Below are positions 23-42,621 of a DNA stretch of 64,000 bases, in pieces. Source of the stretch: Flavipsychrobacter sp. GTDB lineage: Bacteria; Bacteroidota; Bacteroidia; Chitinophagales; Chitinophagaceae. The position numbers and the translations under genes are program-made. The first letter of the stretch is position 1; the number at the start of each line of letters is the position of its first letter. The notes beneath the pieces are model-generated. The model made no database searches, was not told where the DNA came from, and was given only the letters and a program-made list of their open reading frames with translations. The stretch is from positions 1 through 64,000 of the forward strand of contig JARLGY010000016.1 in the NCBI GenBank assembly GCA_031292525.1, written 5' to 3'.

Positions 23-130
<108 letters not shown>

Positions 131-140
131 TTCATTTAAA

Positions 141-34954: not shown

Positions 34955-35023
34955 ATGTCCCTACATTCCGGAAAGCGTCATAGTTGGCGAGATAAAAACA
35001 TTTTTATCTATCTTTAGGCGTAT

Positions 35024-35109
35024 AAAGGTGATGGTGTCCACCTACTTAACCGTCCGCAAATAAGGACTGATGGCGCCTACAATTAATTTGCAAAACTAAT
35101 TTGTAGGCT
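35024..35109 (+). promoter_or_regulatory. Fluoride (crcB) riboswitch with translational expression platform
   Basis: The aptamer has the conserved sequence in order: GGTGATGG (35027-35034), CCACC (35038-35042), a stem GTCC (35052-35055)/GGAC (35064-35067), then TGATGGCGCCTAC (35068-35080), as in fluoride riboswitches. GGTG pairs with CACC. The 3' part GCCTACA (35075-35081) can instead pair with TGTAGGC (35102-35108), and TTA with TAA outside it; this alternative hairpin ends one base before the ATG at 35110 and would hide the start region. Fluoride binding would free it. The gene controlled is a CLC-type exporter. Confidence 0.88.
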
Positions 35110-36480
35110 ATGGCATATCGCAGTCCCTTACTTGGCATTGTCCGTTATTTGATAAAATGGACTTTGTTATCTCTTCCACTTTCTTTAATAGTAGGGTCAC
35201 TTGTTGCTTTATTTCTTTGGTTGCTCGATTGGGTAACTAACTACCGGATGATGCATCCCTGGCTACTGTTCTTGTTGCCGGTTACTGGTATAGTTGTTTA
35301 TTTTCTGTACCGGCTATGGGGTAAGAATGCTGAAGGGGGCAATAACCTTATTATGGAGGAGATACATGAACCTGGTGGTGGAGTGCCTGCACGCATGACA
35401 CCACTTGTTTTGATCACCACATTGCTTACACATCTTAATGGCGGATCGGCAGGGCGCGAAGGTACAGCAGTGCAAATGGGGGGCAGTATGGCCCATCTAT
35501 TGGGCAGGTGGTTCAGGTTGTCGCCGTTAGATATGCGTACGATGCTGATGACTGGTATTGCTGCAGGTTTCGGGGCGGTTTTTGGCACTCCAGTTGCCGG
35601 CGCCGTTTTCGCATTGGAGGTACTTGCTATTGGTAGTATAAGATACGATGCGCTATTGCCTTGCTTGATGGCCGCAACATTAGCCGATATTGTAACCTCA
35701 TCCTGGGGTATACATCATACACATTATACGGTTTCTGTGCTTCCGGTAGAACATTCATTCCTCCCTTTTCTGCATGTCAACGTTATTTTGCTAAGTAAAG
35801 TAATCGCAGCAGGGGCAGCCTTCGGGCTTGCGGCATATTTCTTCTCCGAGTTATTATATACAATTAAAAAAGTTTCTAGGTTATGGATAAAGCCGGAGTG
35901 GCTAATACCTGTTGTTGGAGGGGTTATCATTATTGGCTTGTGGTATGCATCTGGCACTGCAGATTACCTGGGTTTGGGAGTTACAGGCCATTATAGCACC
36001 AGTGTAAGTATTGTGAATGCATTTCATGAAGGTGGGGCTGGCTACTGGAGCTGGCTCTGGAAGCTGGTATTTACTGCAATTACCCTGGGCATGGGCTTTA
36101 AAGGCGGGGAAGTAACACCATTATTTTTTATTGGTGCAACACTGGGTAATGCTATTGCAATGCTATTGGGCGCTCCACCTGATCTTTTTGCCGCTATTGG
36201 TTTTATAGCAGTTTTTGCCGGTGCCACTAATACACCGATAGCGTGTACTATGATGGGGGCTGAATTGTTTGGTGGAAGTTATATTTTTTACTTTGCGGTA
36301 GCTTGTTTTACAGCATATTATTTCAGCGGCAATACAGGCATATACCACGCACAAAGAATAGGTATATCGAAAATGGATGGGGTTGCATTACCCAACGAAA
36401 CACTTTCGCACCTGCGTGAACGAAAAGTATTGCGTAACAGGCGCATCTTTAATATGCTGCTTACCAAATGGCGTAAATAG
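35110..36480 (+). CDS. eriC: CLC-type fluoride/proton antiporter (EriC-F)
   Basis: A 456-residue CLC membrane protein with about ten or more helices. Family motifs: GGSAGREGTAVQMGG with the gating Glu, FGTPVAGAVFALEV, and GMGFKGGEVTPLFFIGATLG near the second anion-binding stretch. The GREGT form and the Bacteroidota annotation class (voltage-gated chloride channel family protein) fit the CLC-F branch that exports fluoride. The fluoride riboswitch directly upstream makes fluoride the likely substrate; this is strong context evidence, not proof. The gene ends 28 bases before the convergent MbnP-like gene. Confidence 0.9.
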   Translation: MAYRSPLLGIVRYLIKWTLLSLPLSLIVGSLVALFLWLLDWVTNYRMMHPWLLFLLPVTGIVVYFLYRLWGKNAEGGNNLIMEEIHEPGGGVPARMTPLVLITTLLTHLNGGSAGREGTAVQMGGSMAHLLGRWFRLSPLDMRTMLMTGIAAGFGAVFGTPVAGAVFALEVLAIGSIRYDALLPCLMAATLADIVTSSWGIHHTHYTVSVLPVEHSFLPFLHVNVILLSKVIAAGAAFGLAAYFFSELLYTIKKVSRLWIKPEWLIPVVGGVIIIGLWYASGTADYLGLGVTGHYSTSVSIVNAFHEGGAGYWSWLWKLVFTAITLGMGFKGGEVTPLFFIGATLGNAIAMLLGAPPDLFAAIGFIAVFAGATNTPIACTMMGAELFGGSYIFYFAVACFTAYYFSGNTGIYHAQRIGISKMDGVALPNETLSHLRERKVLRNRRIFNMLLTKWRK

Positions 36481-36508: not shown

Positions 36509-37279
36509 CTAGTTTTGATAATAGAACATATTAGGTATCCCGGCGGCTATTGTATTGGCCAGGTTAGGATTAGTTAAGTACGTATCCGTAGTAGGATTTG
36601 AAGCAAAATTATTTACCGTCCTCAGCAGTTTGCCATAATCACAAGTAATGTGTACTGTTAATGATTGTCTTATCCCTACGGTATATGCAGGGTTATGTGT
36701 GGGCAATACTACTGTTTCATACAACCGATCTGATCCGATCTGGTACGATATAGGCACCGCTGGGTTACTGGTGTTGTCGCGTGCACTACCTGCTATTTTC
36801 ATAAATATATAACCCTCTGTCATACTGCCAAACCACATGCTAGGGGTCTGAGGTGCCAAAGGGCTGGGGGGTGTATAGTTGCTGGGTATAGTTGCATCAT
36901 TTGTGGCAGGATCTATGCCAACATTGAAGGCTATAGATACGTAATTGCCAGCCTGTATAGTTCCAGCCAAAAAGGTGTTAGTGCCTAATGTTTTTAGCAA
37001 ATAAGTACCTGGGAAGGTAAAGATCCTGCCGCTGGTATTGGTAATGGAGATATTTGAAATATAAAATTGGGCCACATTTAATGCTATTGCCCTGCCTTTC
37101 GTGTCAGTATATAAATGACCCGACGAATCCACTGCGTTTGAATCTACGAATGTGTGAAGATCCAGGAATAGGGTAGAGGTATCAGTGGGTGTTACAATAG
37201 ATGGTTTGTTGCAAGCGGTGTTGCCACAAACTAAAAATAGTATAATTATTAGTGATGATACTGATAATAGGTATTTCAT
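36509..37279 (-). CDS. MbnP-like lipoprotein, WxW-lacking paralogue 1
   Basis: A lipoprotein of 256 residues (lipobox ending NTAC). It follows the MbnP-family pattern: TLFLDLHTFVDSNAVD, AQFYISNISIT, a YLLKTLG segment, GNYVSIAFNVGID, then MWFGSMTEGYIFMKIAG. In MbnP the first Trp of WxW before the GY segment is oxidised to kynurenine by MbnH to bind Cu(I); here that WxW is missing and a single W stands two residues earlier. I choose the ATG at 37279, matching the start of paralogue 2; 15 bases more are open. It is last in the copper-like cluster and convergent with the fluoride exporter. Confidence 0.75.
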   Translation of the reverse strand: MKYLLSVSSLIIILFLVCGNTACNKPSIVTPTDTSTLFLDLHTFVDSNAVDSSGHLYTDTKGRAIALNVAQFYISNISITNTSGRIFTFPGTYLLKTLGTNTFLAGTIQAGNYVSIAFNVGIDPATNDATIPSNYTPPSPLAPQTPSMWFGSMTEGYIFMKIAGSARDNTSNPAVPISYQIGSDRLYETVVLPTHNPAYTVGIRQSLTVHITCDYGKLLRTVNNFASNPTTDTYLTNPNLANTIAAGIPNMFYYQN

Positions 37280-37390
37280 TTTTCTTTTTTGCATCGCGGT
37301 TTGACGCCAATATAAGCCTTATGGTTTAATTGCTTTATTTCATTGGCGTTTCTTTAACGACTGCATTGATGAAAAAGTATGACATTCTAC

Positions 37391-37432
37391 AAAAAAAAGA
37401 AAACCACCGACATACAAGATGAAGGTGGTTTT
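37391..37432 (-). terminator. Terminator after MbnP-like paralogue 2
   Basis: On the minus strand AAAACCACC, a 15-base loop and GGTGGTTTT are followed by CTTTTTTTT. It lies just after the 37450-38220 gene and separates it from paralogue 1. Confidence 0.8.
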
Positions 37433-37449
37433 AAAATTGGTTCATGCCT

Positions 37450-38220
37450 TTATTCTTCGTAACGGAACATATTGGGAATGTTGTTAGCTATTGTTTGCGC
37501 AAGGGTCGGGTTTGTATTGTATGTATCTGTTGATGGATTGCTACTGAAGCTGGTTATGCCCTTCAATAATTTGCCATAATCGCAGATAATGTGCACGGTA
37601 AGCACTTGTTTTGCTGCCACAGTATATATCGGGTTGTGGGTAGGTAACGTTACACTTTCATATAACGCATTAGAGCCAATTTGGTAAGAAATAGGTGTTT
37701 TGATTCCTCCAACAACATCTTGGGCAGTGCCTTGTATATTCATAAATATATAGCCCTTTGTGACATCGCCAAACCACATGCTCGGGCTCTGCAGTGCAAG
37801 CGGACTTGGAACTGCATGAGTAGATGGATTGGTTGCATTGTTTGTTGCATCGACACCTACATAAAATGAAATGAATTTATAACTGCCAACAGGTATGCTG
37901 CCCACTGCATATTCTTCATTACCTATCGTTTTAAGTACATATGCTCCATGTAAAGAAGTAACGGTCCCATCAGTTTTTGTCAATGTTATATTAGATATGT
38001 AAAATTGAGCGAGAGTAAGCCCAATAAATCTTCCATTCCCATCAGGATATAGGGCAGTGGAATCATCTACTTCATTGCTATCTACATTGGTGTGCAGATG
38101 AAGGTATAGCGTAGCGGTATCAGTACTGCTATTATCTGACTTTTTGCAGGAACTGCAACTGAATGTAAATAAGCTGCAAATAAGAACTGTAAATATGGAT
38201 AATGATATAGTGTATTTCAT
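37450..38220 (-). CDS. MbnP-like lipoprotein, WxW-lacking paralogue 2
   Basis: A 256-residue lipoprotein (TFSCSSC near residue 22) highly similar to paralogue 1: TATLYLHLHTNVDSNEVDD, LTLAQFYISNITLT, GSYKFISFYVGVDAT, MWFGDVTKGYIFMNIQG, YQIGSNALYESVTLPTHNP and VHIICDYGKLL. Like paralogue 1 it lacks the WxW motif before the GYI segment. The His-containing stretches LHLHTN and LPTHNP are conserved between the two. Membrane-bound periplasmic copper or metal handling is inferred from the family. Confidence 0.75.
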   Translation of the reverse strand: MKYTISLSIFTVLICSLFTFSCSSCKKSDNSSTDTATLYLHLHTNVDSNEVDDSTALYPDGNGRFIGLTLAQFYISNITLTKTDGTVTSLHGAYVLKTIGNEEYAVGSIPVGSYKFISFYVGVDATNNATNPSTHAVPSPLALQSPSMWFGDVTKGYIFMNIQGTAQDVVGGIKTPISYQIGSNALYESVTLPTHNPIYTVAAKQVLTVHIICDYGKLLKGITSFSSNPSTDTYNTNPTLAQTIANNIPNMFRYEE

Positions 38221-38281
38221 TTGGAATATTTAAATGATTTTGTAGAAAATTGTTTACTAACTTTTAATGAAAGGTTGTGAG

Positions 38282-39046
38282 CTACTTCACCGAATCTATA
38301 CCAAACATGTTTGCATAGTTATCGGCAATAAGCACTGAGTTGGCATTCGGAGACATAGTAGATGTGAACGTGCTCATGTTGATAAGATGGGGCGTTTTAA
38401 ACCAGCTCATGGCGTCAGCATGCATAAAGGCAGTTACCAGTCCCCCGTTTGTTACTGTAACCGGCTGAGGTAAGTTTATTGTGACTTTCCGCAGAGCGCT
38501 GTATTGCCCACTGAAGCCACCGATGTGCAATTGGAAGAACCGTGGAGATCCTGACACAGATGCTGTGCCTTCCATTTTTGCCATTATATAGCCCGTACTC
38601 CAGTCCCAAAACATGCCATTCACAGGGTCAAGTTCCCCAGATTGCGCACCGCTTACGTTGTGCAGGCTATCCACGCCTATCAGGAAAGTGATGCTGGTAT
38701 AATTGCCCACGGGTACATTTCCAATAGTGAAAGTACCACTTCCCTGTACGGCTTGCTGCACCAGGTGGTAGCTATTTGTTTCGGCAAAAGTTTTACCAGA
38801 ATCTGTGGTTAAAACTATATTGCTTATGTAATAGTTAAAAATGCTCACACTAATGCTGTCTCCGTTTGCATCTTTGTAGTATTGGTTCAGCGCAAGAATA
38901 CTGCTGTCTGCTGTATTAGTTATAGCTATTGTCATCTGGCCGGTTACTGCAGGAGTTGCCGGTTTAGGAGATGGGTCTTTTCTGCATGCAGTAAAGACTG
39001 TGGACAAGGTCCAAAACAATAGGGTAAGTTTTATTGAAGTTTTCAT
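38282..39046 (-). CDS. MbnP-like lipoprotein with intact WxW motif
   Basis: A 254-residue lipoprotein (FTAC, Cys21) that fits canonical MbnP: LALNQYYKDANGDSI, IFNYYISNIVLT, HLVQQAV, GNYTSITFLIGVDSLHN, then GELDPVNGMFWDWSTGYIMA and the His-containing FQLHIGG. W147-D-W149 is the conserved WxW; in studied MbnP the first Trp is turned into kynurenine by the di-heme enzyme MbnH, creating a Cu(I) site. The MauG/MbnH-like gene lies 2 kb upstream in the same cluster. Confidence 0.82.
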   Translation of the reverse strand: MKTSIKLTLLFWTLSTVFTACRKDPSPKPATPAVTGQMTIAITNTADSSILALNQYYKDANGDSISVSIFNYYISNIVLTTDSGKTFAETNSYHLVQQAVQGSGTFTIGNVPVGNYTSITFLIGVDSLHNVSGAQSGELDPVNGMFWDWSTGYIMAKMEGTASVSGSPRFFQLHIGGFSGQYSALRKVTINLPQPVTVTNGGLVTAFMHADAMSWFKTPHLINMSTFTSTMSPNANSVLIADNYANMFGIDSVK

Positions 39047-39078
39047 TTTGTTTTTTTTAGTCTGCTTTAATATTTATT

Positions 39079-39489
39079 CTATGGCATTGTTGTTATCCAT
39101 ACCGTATCCGCTGCCTCGGTACCCACATGGTCCAGATTTGCATTAAGGATCAATTGCAGGTTTTTGACCTGGGTACAGGTATCCACCCATTGTAACTGTA
39201 CTGAAAAGTGATCATTATGTATGTCCGCTGCGCTTTCATACAAAACGTTTTCTGTAGCAGTGTCTATTAGCTGAACGTAGTAACCATGCAATTCTCCAGA
39301 ATAAGTAACGCTAAACGACATGTTTACCGTATCCCCCTTACGGTACATTTGTCCTTTAAGAGGACTTTGGACAGTAATGCCTACAGCAGATGGATTTTCC
39401 GCTGTAACACTTTTCTTGCGGCACGAAGCGTAAGCCAAGCTTGCAATAGCTAGTACAATAAGGACAACTTTATTTTTTGTAATGGGCAT
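39079..39489 (-). CDS. Lipoprotein in the MbnP cluster
   Basis: A 136-residue lipoprotein (LAYASC, Cys23). The mature domain is one beta-sandwich-like unit (ITVQSPLKGQMYRKGDTVNMSFSVT, HGYYVQLIDTATENVLYES, LILNANLDHVGTEAADTVWI), resembling Ig/fibronectin-like domains of lipoproteins near copper genes in Bacteroidota. I cannot name the family with certainty. It lies five bases after the outer-membrane protein gene and 32 bases before the WxW MbnP gene, so the three are co-transcribed. Confidence 0.7.
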   Translation of the reverse strand: MPITKNKVVLIVLAIASLAYASCRKKSVTAENPSAVGITVQSPLKGQMYRKGDTVNMSFSVTYSGELHGYYVQLIDTATENVLYESAADIHNDHFSVQLQWVDTCTQVKNLQLILNANLDHVGTEAADTVWITTMP

Positions 39490-39493
39490 TTTT

Positions 39494-40441
39494 CTATTTT
39501 TTGTTTTGTCTGTTCAATAACACATAAAGCCCTGTTTCAAACTGGTTGTGAGCGGTAACAAGCCCGGTAGCATAATGCTGCGATGTTGGGATGGTGTACA
39601 TGGCATGAAGGCCCATACGTTTGTAATATACGTAAGCCCCGGCAGTAGCATATAAGAAGTAGCCGCCCGTATAACTGTCTACCCAGCCTTTGGAGTAATT
39701 ATCATAGTCCATAGCTGTATTTTCATACCGCAGGCCTATTTCTGGCATGACGGTCCATTTATTGCGCTGGAGCCAATATACCCCGTTCAGACTTGTATTG
39801 AAGTGATTGCCATATTTATATTGCTGTGCATTAGGGGTATTGGCATTGTAACCTGCGTCCAGGTTTATACCATAACCTCCTTTGCGCACAGTATAATTGG
39901 CATTGAACAAAAGATCCCAGCTTCCCGTGCCCGGCTGCATGTTAGGTACTACCTGATCAGACAATACAACATCCTGTAACGACTGATACTTACCTGTTGG
40001 GGTTTTTACCCCGCCGCCGGCTTGCAAGGTATGCTGCCATCCGCCTTTGTTTGTGCGGTTTACCAGCGTTACATTTGCTAAGACAGATGCATCGCCAATG
40101 CCTTGTGTATTCGCACGTACGCCATCCTCCAGCTTACTGTTAGATACCACCGGTACAAACACAAACAGGTGTACGTTTTTAGACACGTAGAATCGCCCCC
40201 ATAGCAATGCTGTGTTATAGCTTTCGTGCGATACGGATGAGCTTTCGCCTCTGTAGTCGAAATTGGCAGGCCTGAAGCTGGTAAAGCTCCGGTACTGATA
40301 TTGCAGTCCAAAAAAGTTGGTATAAAAATCTGGCAATACCCCCAGGTAATTGTTGCTTGACGAGCATCCGCAAAGTGCGCATGCGCCGCATTGCAGCGAG
40401 GCCAGCATTGCAGCAACCCCGCACATCAATATGCGTTTCAT
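39494..40441 (-). CDS. Outer-membrane beta-barrel protein with Cys-rich N-terminus
   Basis: About 315 residues. After the signal peptide (MKRILMCGVAAMLASLQ) the mature start is C-rich (CGACALCGCSSSNNYLG), then the sequence alternates beta strands to the end (FFGLQYQYRSF, LHAMYTIPTSQHYATG, FETGLYVLLNRQNKK). This looks like an outer-membrane barrel with a short metal-binding-type N-terminus, often called a transporter in such clusters. I use the ATG at 40441; 18 codons upstream are also open but precede the signal. It is part of the MbnP/MauG cluster. Confidence 0.72.
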   Translation of the reverse strand: MKRILMCGVAAMLASLQCGACALCGCSSSNNYLGVLPDFYTNFFGLQYQYRSFTSFRPANFDYRGESSSVSHESYNTALLWGRFYVSKNVHLFVFVPVVSNSKLEDGVRANTQGIGDASVLANVTLVNRTNKGGWQHTLQAGGGVKTPTGKYQSLQDVVLSDQVVPNMQPGTGSWDLLFNANYTVRKGGYGINLDAGYNANTPNAQQYKYGNHFNTSLNGVYWLQRNKWTVMPEIGLRYENTAMDYDNYSKGWVDSYTGGYFLYATAGAYVYYKRMGLHAMYTIPTSQHYATGLVTAHNQFETGLYVLLNRQNKK

Positions 40442-40546
40442 TGTAAGACTTTTTGTTGCCGGCACAAAAATGCGCAGCCTGGAATAATAACGCACACAAA
40501 AACATATTACTGCTTCAGCAACGTATGATACGATCCAATAAAAAAT

Positions 40547-40927
40547 CTAAACCAGTGGGGGATGAAAAACAGAAGGGTGGGGACGTGTTACTAATGATAA
40601 GTTGTAGCCTGACCTGTGCGTCAACAGGTCATCTGTAACAATAGTACTAAAAGCAAAAGGTGTAGATGGAATAACGAACATGGGCATCTCTGCTTTATCC
40701 CATTTATTAGGTATTGAGCCTGGTCTGCTTTGCTCATCATTCACCTTATCCAATTTTTTCTTAAGGCAACATTTACCGCAACATTTCATCTGTGGTTTGT
40801 CGCGGTTCTCACAGAGGTTTTTTGCTATGTAATCTTTATTGTAATTGAACCATACCACCACTCCAAGCTTTACAAAGCATTGAAAGGAGATACTCAAAAA
40901 CAACAGTATGGCTATAGCTACGCGCAT
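40547..40927 (-). CDS. Cys-rich small membrane-linked protein
   Basis: A 126-residue protein with an N-terminal hydrophobic helix (IAILLFLSISFQCFVKLGVVVWF) and then a basic, Cys-rich segment: NLCENRDKPQMKCCGKCCLKK. Such C-E-N...K-P...C-x-GKC-x-L patterns recur in Bacteroidota proteins next to copper or heavy-metal genes, so metal binding is likely but inferred. The C-terminal half is Pro-rich and without a clear motif. It is encoded between the barrel and the MauG-like peroxidase on the same strand. Confidence 0.68.
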   Translation of the reverse strand: MRVAIAILLFLSISFQCFVKLGVVVWFNYNKDYIAKNLCENRDKPQMKCCGKCCLKKKLDKVNDEQSRPGSIPNKWDKAEMPMFVIPSTPFAFSTIVTDDLLTHRSGYNLSLVTRPHPSVFHPPLV

Positions 40928-41004
40928 ATATCAGTATAAAATTACGCACTGTGTCGTTATAAAAAAAATACTTTAGGTTAATAGGTGCCCACAGCCGACT
41001 TGAT

Positions 41005-42102
41005 TTACGGTGCAGGATAATTGTTAGGGTCTGAAAAAAGTGGATTTGTATATAAAGTGTGGTCGGTAAGCGTATTTAAAAAGCTGATCAGGTCATTTTT
41101 TTGTTGCGTTGTTAACGGGATACCTCCGGTTAGCGAAGGATCAAGCGTTGCGCAATAAGAAGCGCCAGGCTTGATGCTGGTACTAAAATAATCCAGCACG
41201 TCAAGCAACGTAAGGAAACGGCCGTCGTGCATGTAGGGCGCCGTGAGTGCAATATTTCGAAGTGAAGGCGTTTTAAATTTGTAGCGGTCGCTTGCATTAT
41301 GGGTAATGTGTTCACGGCCGCTGTCAATAATGAATTGGCCGGTATGATTGATCACAGGCATTACTTCAGGTTCCAGTCCTATGCTTCTGAATTGATAATC
41401 ACTAAACAGAGGCTCAGAGTGGCAGCTTGCACACTTTGTCTTGAAGGTAGTGTATCCATTCGTTTCAGAACTATTGAACGTAATCTGGCCTCTTACAAAG
41501 CTGTCATACCGGGAATTATTGCTGATCATTACAGCCATAAATTGTGCCAGCGACTGGAAGATATGTTTTGAGTTAATCAGATCTCCAGTGTCATTGCTAA
41601 AAGCTCTCTGGAACATAGCGGGATACATAGGGTCTTTACTTATTTTCCTTATCACATCCGGGAGGGTTTCACCCATCTCTACTGGATTGGTCATTGGGTT
41701 TATGGGTTGGTTTTCCAGGTTAGTAACGCCACCATCCCAAAAATATGAAGTATTCCAGGCCATGTTGAAAATACCAGGCGCGTTACGAGTGCCGTTTTGG
41801 TTGCCTACTCCATGGCTTACAAAGTGAGCCAGGTTAGAAAAAGCAGCAAAATTTTGGTGGCAAAAAGCGCAGGAAACGGTATCGTTGCTGGAAAGACGAC
41901 CATCGTAAAATAATCTCCTGCCAAGTTGAAAACCGTCGTAAGTGAGCCGGTTATTTGTGAATTGATAATAGGGTTGAGGCCATCCTTTAGGTATGTCAAA
42001 AGCTACCTGTTTGCTTGAAGTCGGTACATATGGATCCACCCTGCACGATAACCAGAAGCAGAGTGCAAACAATAAAGATAACACTAGGAACTTTTTGTAC
42101 AT
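41005..42102 (-). CDS. MauG/MbnH-like di-heme cytochrome c peroxidase, lipoprotein
   Basis: A 365-residue lipoprotein (WLSC, Cys20). It carries two haem c motifs, C78-AF-C81-H82 and C224-AS-C227-H228, in the order and spacing of the bCcP/MauG superfamily, plus family segments GRRLFYDGRLSSNDTVSC, GVGNQNGTRNAPGIFNMAWN, and FKTPSLRNIALTAPYMHDGR near the C-terminus. MbnH belongs to this superfamily and oxidises a Trp of MbnP to kynurenine. The three MbnP-like genes downstream make an MbnH-like role plausible; a classic peroxidase role cannot be excluded from sequence. Confidence 0.85.
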   Translation of the reverse strand: MYKKFLVLSLLFALCFWLSCRVDPYVPTSSKQVAFDIPKGWPQPYYQFTNNRLTYDGFQLGRRLFYDGRLSSNDTVSCAFCHQNFAAFSNLAHFVSHGVGNQNGTRNAPGIFNMAWNTSYFWDGGVTNLENQPINPMTNPVEMGETLPDVIRKISKDPMYPAMFQRAFSNDTGDLINSKHIFQSLAQFMAVMISNNSRYDSFVRGQITFNSSETNGYTTFKTKCASCHSEPLFSDYQFRSIGLEPEVMPVINHTGQFIIDSGREHITHNASDRYKFKTPSLRNIALTAPYMHDGRFLTLLDVLDYFSTSIKPGASYCATLDPSLTGGIPLTTQQKNDLISFLNTLTDHTLYTNPLFSDPNNYPAP

Positions 42103-42210
42103 GTTACGCTAGGACTTACGCAAAACTACACTAATAACGTTTTGTAAAACAAAAGTGTTGTACGCTTTAAACAAAAAATACATGCAGATGACAATGGTAT
42201 AAATGTTTCG

Positions 42211-42621
42211 TTATTCACTGACAGGTATGTTTGTAGTAGTAATGGCATTTTGTTGAGTGATGGTTACATTTACAGCCCCTGTAAGCAATTTTGTGAACCT
42301 TGAGCTGTCGTACCCATGGTCATTTGCCACATAATAATTTCCGTTCTTTAAGTTGGTAAACGTACACGTAACAATACTATCTGCACATACACACGTTGTT
42401 GAATCGTCGTACACAGGAGTGGTAGGCGCTTCTGTTGCATTATATTTTATGTAAAGCACAAGGGTGTCTATAGGCCAAGCCAGGGAGTGGTGTTGCGCAT
42501 GTAATACTAGCGTTGCAGTGCCACCTTTGCCAGCTACGGGAGGATTGGCCTTTTTTACACAGCTAGCACTTATTATCAGCATTGCTGCAAATACAATTAT
42601 TAGGTTAATTCTCTTTTTCAT
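42211..42621 (-). CDS. Small lipoprotein with His pair, head of the MbnP/MauG cluster
   Basis: A 136-residue lipoprotein (ISASC, Cys21). The mature part has GGTATLVLHAQHHSLAWPID, then LVLYIKYNATEAP, a Cys-containing STTCVCADSIVTC, and NGNYYVANDHGYD, as in a small beta-domain. HAQHH could bind metal. This family recurs in Bacteroidota near MbnP and copper genes by my recollection, but I cannot give a name. It is upstream of the MauG-like gene with 108 bases between. Confidence 0.68.
   Translation of the reverse strand: MKKRINLIIVFAAMLIISASCVKKANPPVAGKGGTATLVLHAQHHSLAWPIDTLVLYIKYNATEAPTTPVYDDSTTCVCADSIVTCTFTNLKNGNYYVANDHGYDSSRFTKLLTGAVNVTITQQNAITTTNIPVSE

Follow-up and report, generated by a model that had tools for sequence, protein, structure and literature searches.

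Among the described systems closest to the one reported here are CorA/CorB and MopE/SACCP of methanotrophs, in which a kynurenine-containing Cu(I) surface protein is encoded beside a di-haem peroxidase and binds copper through a site with two His, unlike the site predicted below (PMC3912023, PMC3621798). CorA, a surface-bound kynurenine Cu(I) protein partnered by a di-haem gene, is copper-repressible and has a suggested role in copper acquisition (PMC3912023). The MbnP/MbnH pair is conserved far beyond methanobactin producers and is therefore not new in itself (PMC3621798). Here, we analyse the first 64,000 nucleotides (the window) of contig JARLGY010000016.1 of Flavipsychrobacter sp. (assembly GCA_031292525.1), where positions 36509-42621 carry eight genes, among them three for MbnP-like proteins and one for an MbnH-type di-haem enzyme, which probably make up a stand-alone copper-handling module of MbnP/MbnH type in the Bacteroidota envelope. 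To our knowledge, MbnP and MbnH have no settled role outside methanotrophs.

The source genome comprises 4.44 Mb in 75 contigs and is 98.8% complete. As the original prediction from the bare sequence had it, all eight frames are open, lie on the minus strand and fill the whole span; their order of transcription is H-G-F-E-D-C-B-A, with intergenic gaps of 4-155 bases calculated from the gene coordinates. The features are as follows:

42211..42621, minus strand: gene H, lipoprotein-like, 136 amino acids, with GGKGG-like and HH motifs
41005..42102, minus strand: gene G, MbnH-type di-haem enzyme with two CXXCH motifs (His82, His228); best PDB match 6e1c
41185..41190, minus strand: Tyr305-Phe306 of G (TAT TTT), a pair that is His-Tyr or Phe-Tyr in most homologues
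40547..40927, minus strand: gene F, Cys-rich, 126 amino acids, with a hydrophobic N-terminus, LCENxxxPxxxCxGxCxLxK and a C-terminal FHPP
39494..40441, minus strand: gene E, outer-membrane barrel with an N-terminal CxxCxLCGC-type motif and a COG4313 channel/FapF-like fold
39079..39489, minus strand: gene D, lipoprotein-like, 136 amino acids, DUF4625-like but under the Pfam cut-off; its relatives come after E
38282..39046, minus strand: gene C, MbnP-type, lipoprotein-like, with WxW; likely substrate of G and predicted Cu(I) binder
38612-38614, minus strand: Met145 of C, predicted Cu ligand
38606..38608, minus strand: codon for Trp147 of C, the first W of WxW and the residue predicted to become kynurenine
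38525-38527, minus strand: His174 of C, predicted Cu ligand
37450..38220, minus strand: gene B, Trp-less MbnP-like protein with Phe at the Trp147 column and Gln at the His174 column
37400..37432, minus strand: inverted repeat between B and A with 14-base arms and a loop of 5, seen in the sequence only
36509..37294, minus strand: gene A, MbnP-like, Trp-less, sharing 55% identity with B

In the mechanism that we consider probable for this module, the di-haem enzyme G would oxidise Trp147 of C to kynurenine, which would complete a Cu(I) site together with His174, Met145 and a water. C would exchange copper with the COG4313-like outer-membrane channel E, the N-terminal Cys motif of E and the Cys-rich F would relay Cu(I), and D and H may contribute to the relay as His-bearing lipoproteins, while A and B would bind metal in a kynurenine-free manner and E would pass copper across the outer membrane. 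Copper as the metal is suggested by homology and by the neighbours of F in other genomes (SCO1/SenC, a heavy-metal-binding domain and an HlyD/CusB-type adaptor, with COX1 as a further metal hint).

Compared with MbnP/MbnH of Methylosinus trichosporium, the cluster is alike in the MbnP fold (C, Z 17.8), the WxW motif and the presence of an MbnH-type gene. It differs by the added F, E, D, H and two Trp-less paralogues, by Phe306 in the enzyme, and by a C whose sole Cys is residue 21, the four-Cys motif of the deposited MbnP name being absent. A further difference is that PF05114 (the MbnB-type methanobactin enzyme family) has no match in the source genome, where the MbnA precursor peptide was not searched for, and 2 of 14 control genomes do match; this supports the stand-alone character that had been predicted.

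All three proteins that had been called MbnP-like pass the Pfam family MbnP (PF20243; A 82 bits, B 86 bits, C 175 bits, gathering cut-off 27 bits), and they are the only matches in the source genome, with 0 of 14 control genomes matching. They are not equivalent, however, as only C has the aligned WxW, and only C combines WxW, Met and His as a kynurenine site requires. The published MbnP site reportedly consists of a His, a Met, a solvent ligand and a kynurenine derived from the first W of WxW. For the structure model of C (mean predicted local distance difference test score, pLDDT, of 91), the six chains of 7l6g, the MbnP of M. trichosporium, are the sole PDB matches at E ≤ 0.001 (207 residues aligned at Z 17.8 and 2.8 Å; runner-up entry Z 5.5); in the sequence alignment of the two, which is weak (E 0.1), the WxW motifs pair and one His pairs. 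Met145, Trp147, Trp149 and His174 are invariant across 30 aligned relatives of C picked by score, and in a wider sample of 134 proteins with Trp147, His174 is present in 129, Trp149 in 115 and Met145 in 107. The nearest named-record matches to C, among the matches listed, are from a Bacteroidetes bacterium, Flavipsychrobacter and Taibaiella. Judged by its WxW, Met and His, C is likely the substrate of G and a Cu(I) binder.

G scores 181 bits with Pfam CCP_MauG and finds its best solved relative in 6e1c (177 bits; next 4aal, 141 bits), in keeping with the di-haem MauG/MbnH-like gene expected here. The PDB names 6e1c 'Di-heme enzyme', and we take it to be the MbnH of Methylosinus trichosporium. 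With two c-haem motifs and 6e1c as nearest solved enzyme, G groups with MbnH, and a profile of MbnP-adjacent MbnHs ranks it first in its own genome (493 bits, a value inflated by G being a row of that profile; next 321).

The same gene set recurs in related genomes. Counting the source genome, 106 of the 119 genomes of the order carry PF20243, and at the 29 foreign best-MbnP loci in the order (2.2-3.7 kb per locus) an MbnH homologue lies beside the WxW gene in every case, with F present at 13 and E at 8. A second sample consisted of named WxW loci, the best 80 of 585, of which 22 span under 14 kb; since they were found by the pattern M[YF]WxW, Met and WxW are conserved there by construction. 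Within 5 kb, MbnH occurs at 66 of them, E or F at 14 and a relative of H at 13, counts in which the E matches at L206 (a long frame overlapping MbnH) and at L141 and L176 (weak, ~42 bits) were kept. Around E itself (40 of 50 foreign E matches), F lies within 2 kb in 36, an MbnP within 5 kb in 23 and an MbnH within 6 kb in 16. At 20 F loci with high scores, taken from other families within the phylum, the order F-MbnP-MbnH appears nine times and runs on into E in seven of these; all nine MbnPs have WxW and His174. Larger blocks read F-E-D-MbnP-MbnH-H in L137 and H-F-E-D-MbnP-H in L149 and L208, the latter order being found with one extra gene in L142. The search for the same set that had been proposed along with the prediction thus finds F and E recurring with MbnP/MbnH pairs, and by their gene linkage these extra parts belong with MbnP/MbnH and are not incidental. 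The recurrent F-MbnP-MbnH-E order points to likely partners and to a candidate outer-membrane copper route. Such a linkage of F and E to MbnP/MbnH in Bacteroidota was not found in the literature searched, the primary MbnP and MbnH papers lying outside that search.

Just past the block in L149 and L208 (~9-12 kb), arsenic-handling-like genes (ArsC type, transporter, methyltransferase-like) were recognised by eye. The metagenome-assembled genome records of L142 and L212, titled Azovibrio restrictus and Actinomyces viscosus, carry Bacteroidota-type MbnP loci and are probably mislabelled or mixed bins.

The tie between the enzyme and its presumed target residue was examined in 144 MbnP proteins, namely the three of the window, those of the 29 and 80 loci among the listed PF20243 matches and those of the 40 E loci, after removal of 12 of 156 unique hits that scored below 120 bits. 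Trp147 is present in 134, with an MbnH within 2.5 kb of 123, and absent from 10, with an MbnH within 2.5 kb of none (Fisher's p = 4.6e-10, a statistic that ignores kinship). The ten Trp-less proteins are nine of one clade plus L227, effectively two lineages, and seven of them were drawn from loci fetched via E; A and B, at 2.8 and 3.7 kb from G in the same cluster, fall just beyond the 2.5-kb limit. This distribution argues against the alternative that G is an H2O2 peroxidase and that the MbnP proteins use another, unmodified metal site, as does the position of 6e1c as the solved structure nearest to G. That alternative draws on Phe306, which departs from the Tyr of most relatives, and on the score of G under the MbnH cut-off (TIGR04039); we regard it as quite improbable and retain G as an enzyme that would modify C.

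Several observations weigh against the proposed module and its kynurenine chemistry. Both principal proteins fail their NCBIfam models: C reaches 36 bits with the equivalog TIGR04052 (MbnP WxW copper-binding protein, cut-off 140) and G 221.5 bits with TIGR04039 (MbnH, cut-off 362.85). Two further Bacteroidota MbnPs (43 and 48 bits with TIGR04052) and two MbnHs, likewise from other genomes, also stay under the NCBIfam cut-offs, and TIGR04039 is passed by one of the 119 order genomes, in a double frame. Met145 is replaced in 27 of the 134 Trp147 proteins and, by this alignment column, is not strictly kept as a ligand across the family. At 14 of the 80 named WxW loci, MbnH is missing within 5 kb, and in L142, L149, L150 and L208 the WxW gene stands amid relatives of F, E, D and H with no adjacent MbnH. 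These four genomes carry MbnH homologues elsewhere, and nine named-locus genomes searched whole, eight of them without MbnH in the locus, all hold an MbnH homologue of at least 427 bits. Finally, G lacks the Tyr expected at the likely axial-ligand position (MauG Tyr294) and has Phe306 there, which could impair a MauG-like mechanism.

A Leptospira paper states that the MauG axial ligand Tyr294 is kept in MauGs, with Met or His in its place in peroxidases (PMC7567364). In the alignments of G with 6e1c and 4aal, the 306 column holds Tyr and Met, from which we infer that it is likely a haem-ligand position. Of 211 unique homologues (window included), 198 carry Tyr at this position, 2 carry His and 6 have a gap; the other five, all with Phe, are those of the window, L245, L329, L336 and L202, and the three other di-haem paralogues of the source genome carry Tyr. 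In a tree of 205 homologues (like the MbnP tree below, a single FastTree run), L245, L329 and L336 form a clade of three with support 1.0, and the G of the window is nearest to L143, L137 and L139, all with Tyr at 306. Since that clade stands apart and the neighbours of G have Tyr, the Tyr-Phe pair arose at least twice.

Each Tyr-Phe MbnH, in the window as in L245, L329 and L336, adjoins an MbnP with intact WxW, and this recurrence speaks for a natural variant and against simple decay. A decaying cluster, in which Phe306 would have inactivated G and the system would run on the Trp-less A and B with F-E-D, could account for Phe306 and for two Trp-less paralogues in one cluster, but none of the eight frames is interrupted and the haem motifs are preserved, as are WxW, Met and His, which, with the separate Tyr-Phe clade, makes it highly improbable in our view. 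A reading of Phe306 as a defect unique to the source genome, which had rested on 28 homologues from the order and 37 named ones (37 of 71 hits aligned), was dropped given Tyr-Phe in L245, L329 and L336 and Phe in L202 among the 211. In the preferred reading of Tyr-Phe as a natural variant, the ligand has perhaps shifted to Tyr305. In L245, the partner MbnP of the Tyr-Phe MbnH has Glu at the His174 column.

A and B would follow another path than C. Both fail TIGR04052 (B 27 bits, A 23 bits, cut-off 140) and have Phe at the Trp147 column and Gln at the His174 column, where two other members of their clade retain His. Together with eight further proteins they make up a clade of 10 (support 0.999), in which only the clade itself and the A-B pair (0.995) are firm, support being otherwise poor within it (0.17-0.37). 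That A, B and C are equal MbnH substrates is rejected, given that A and B fall in a clade without Trp147 and without MbnH within 2.5 kb; as both have a Trp one residue ahead of the Trp147 column (MWFG), some other oxidation is possible. A and B are probably metal binders with a different site, independent of G. A search of the 119 genomes with a profile of the Trp-less clade yielded 12 matches that reach 200 bits, spread over 9 genomes including the own, 9 of the 12 having been among the sequences that built it. F plus E or an E-like barrel is present at all nine Trp-less loci, and at the eight foreign ones MbnH was not seen in the 9-17 kb read per locus. Both branches occur together in the window and in L176.

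Tentatively, and with more doubt than confidence, we propose that MbnP has split in Bacteroidota into a branch with MbnH-made kynurenine and a kynurenine-free branch, here A and B, with another site and with F and E. In the window, both would share one outer-membrane copper gate, and the MbnH would be of the twice-arisen Tyr-Phe type, its second haem lacking the usual Tyr ligand. Trp-bearing and Trp-less MbnPs, like the natural Tyr-Phe MbnHs, offer comparisons for what kynurenine chemistry requires.

L227 (G007), an MbnP relative, falls outside the Trp-less clade and has Gln at the Trp147 column, its loss of Trp probably being a second, separate event. Between two Trp-less MbnP genes, L082:6786-7175 (minus strand) encodes a small protein whose domain resembles Planctomycete cytochrome c (PF07635, 24.6 bits).

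E likely starts at the ATG at 40441 and not at the GTG at 40495. Its structure model (pLDDT 80) is a barrel of about 12 strands, and it bears the Cys motif, so the outer-membrane barrel with a Cys-rich start foreseen from the sequence is borne out. The barrel fold is common to E, the COG4313 channel 4rl8 (Z 23.9) and FapF 5o65 (Z 23.1); E differs from both in its N-terminal Cys motif and its linkage to MbnP/MbnH, and the identity is 14-15%. Many but not all E proteins have CxxC[GN] near the N-terminus (13 of 23 and 10 of 13 E rows). F is indeed the small Cys-rich protein that had been noted, and 121 of the 296 genomes sampled across the phylum, the source genome among them, have a member of its family. 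The F and E members scanned gave no Pfam or NCBIfam family above its cut-off; F is thereby flagged as a small Cys-rich family without a family name in a phylum many of whose members can be cultured.

At other loci, F stands ahead of a TonB-dependent receptor, with or without a YtkA-domain lipoprotein in between, and single loci have SCO1/SenC, PepSY or heavy-metal-binding-domain genes close to F. Transport would most likely serve copper acquisition, a direction that we favour because CorA is copper-repressible and surface-bound (PMC3912023) and because F is in places found with receptors and SCO. The same parts could instead provide copper protection, with C, A and B sequestering Cu(I) at the surface and E letting copper or a complex out: E resembles passive channels, not TonB-dependent receptors, and F has an HlyD/CusB-type adaptor nearby in L323, and in L326 and L334 a heavy-metal-binding domain. 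This is rather unlikely in our estimate, as F precedes TonB-dependent receptors and adjoins or is near SCO genes in other genomes, and as the kynurenine Cu protein CorA is made when copper is scarce (PMC3912023).

In L113, L114, L116, L121, L122, L125-L127, L130 and L332, F is followed by a lipoprotein and then by a TonB-dependent-receptor-like gene; a YtkA domain was present in three scanned lipoproteins of these loci (L114, L130, L332). F-lipoprotein-receptor is a second type of F-headed operon, possibly for metal uptake.

The two further lipoproteins predicted, D and H, do have lipoprotein-like N-termini, as judged by eye. D fails DUF4625 (PF15418) with 15.7 bits at a cut-off of 27, its relatives reaching 22.1 and 19.0, and H has no Pfam match above cut-off and no NCBIfam match. 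An iterated D profile drifted and tagged some MbnP and YtkA lipoproteins as D, so its labels were dropped, and the assignment of D rests on other searches.

The inverted repeat at 37400-37432 between B and A is a possible terminator, although it is not among the terminator-like sites of a separate window-wide scan; these sites and the sigma-70 promoters found in the window were discarded, their counts being at chance level. The pattern TTTG-N-TANNTTTG, which we take to be the Bacteroidota-type promoter pattern, has 5 matches in the window against 4.0 expected, with one at 42121-42153 (minus strand) directly upstream of G, and was not used as evidence. Convergent with gene A, at 35018-36480 (plus strand), a fluoride riboswitch (Rfam RF01734, 53.6 bits) stands directly upstream of a gene for 456 amino acids, by eye a CLC-type channel, the two forming an ordinary fluoride unit. 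The beginning of the window carries a 5S rRNA gene (23-131, plus strand).

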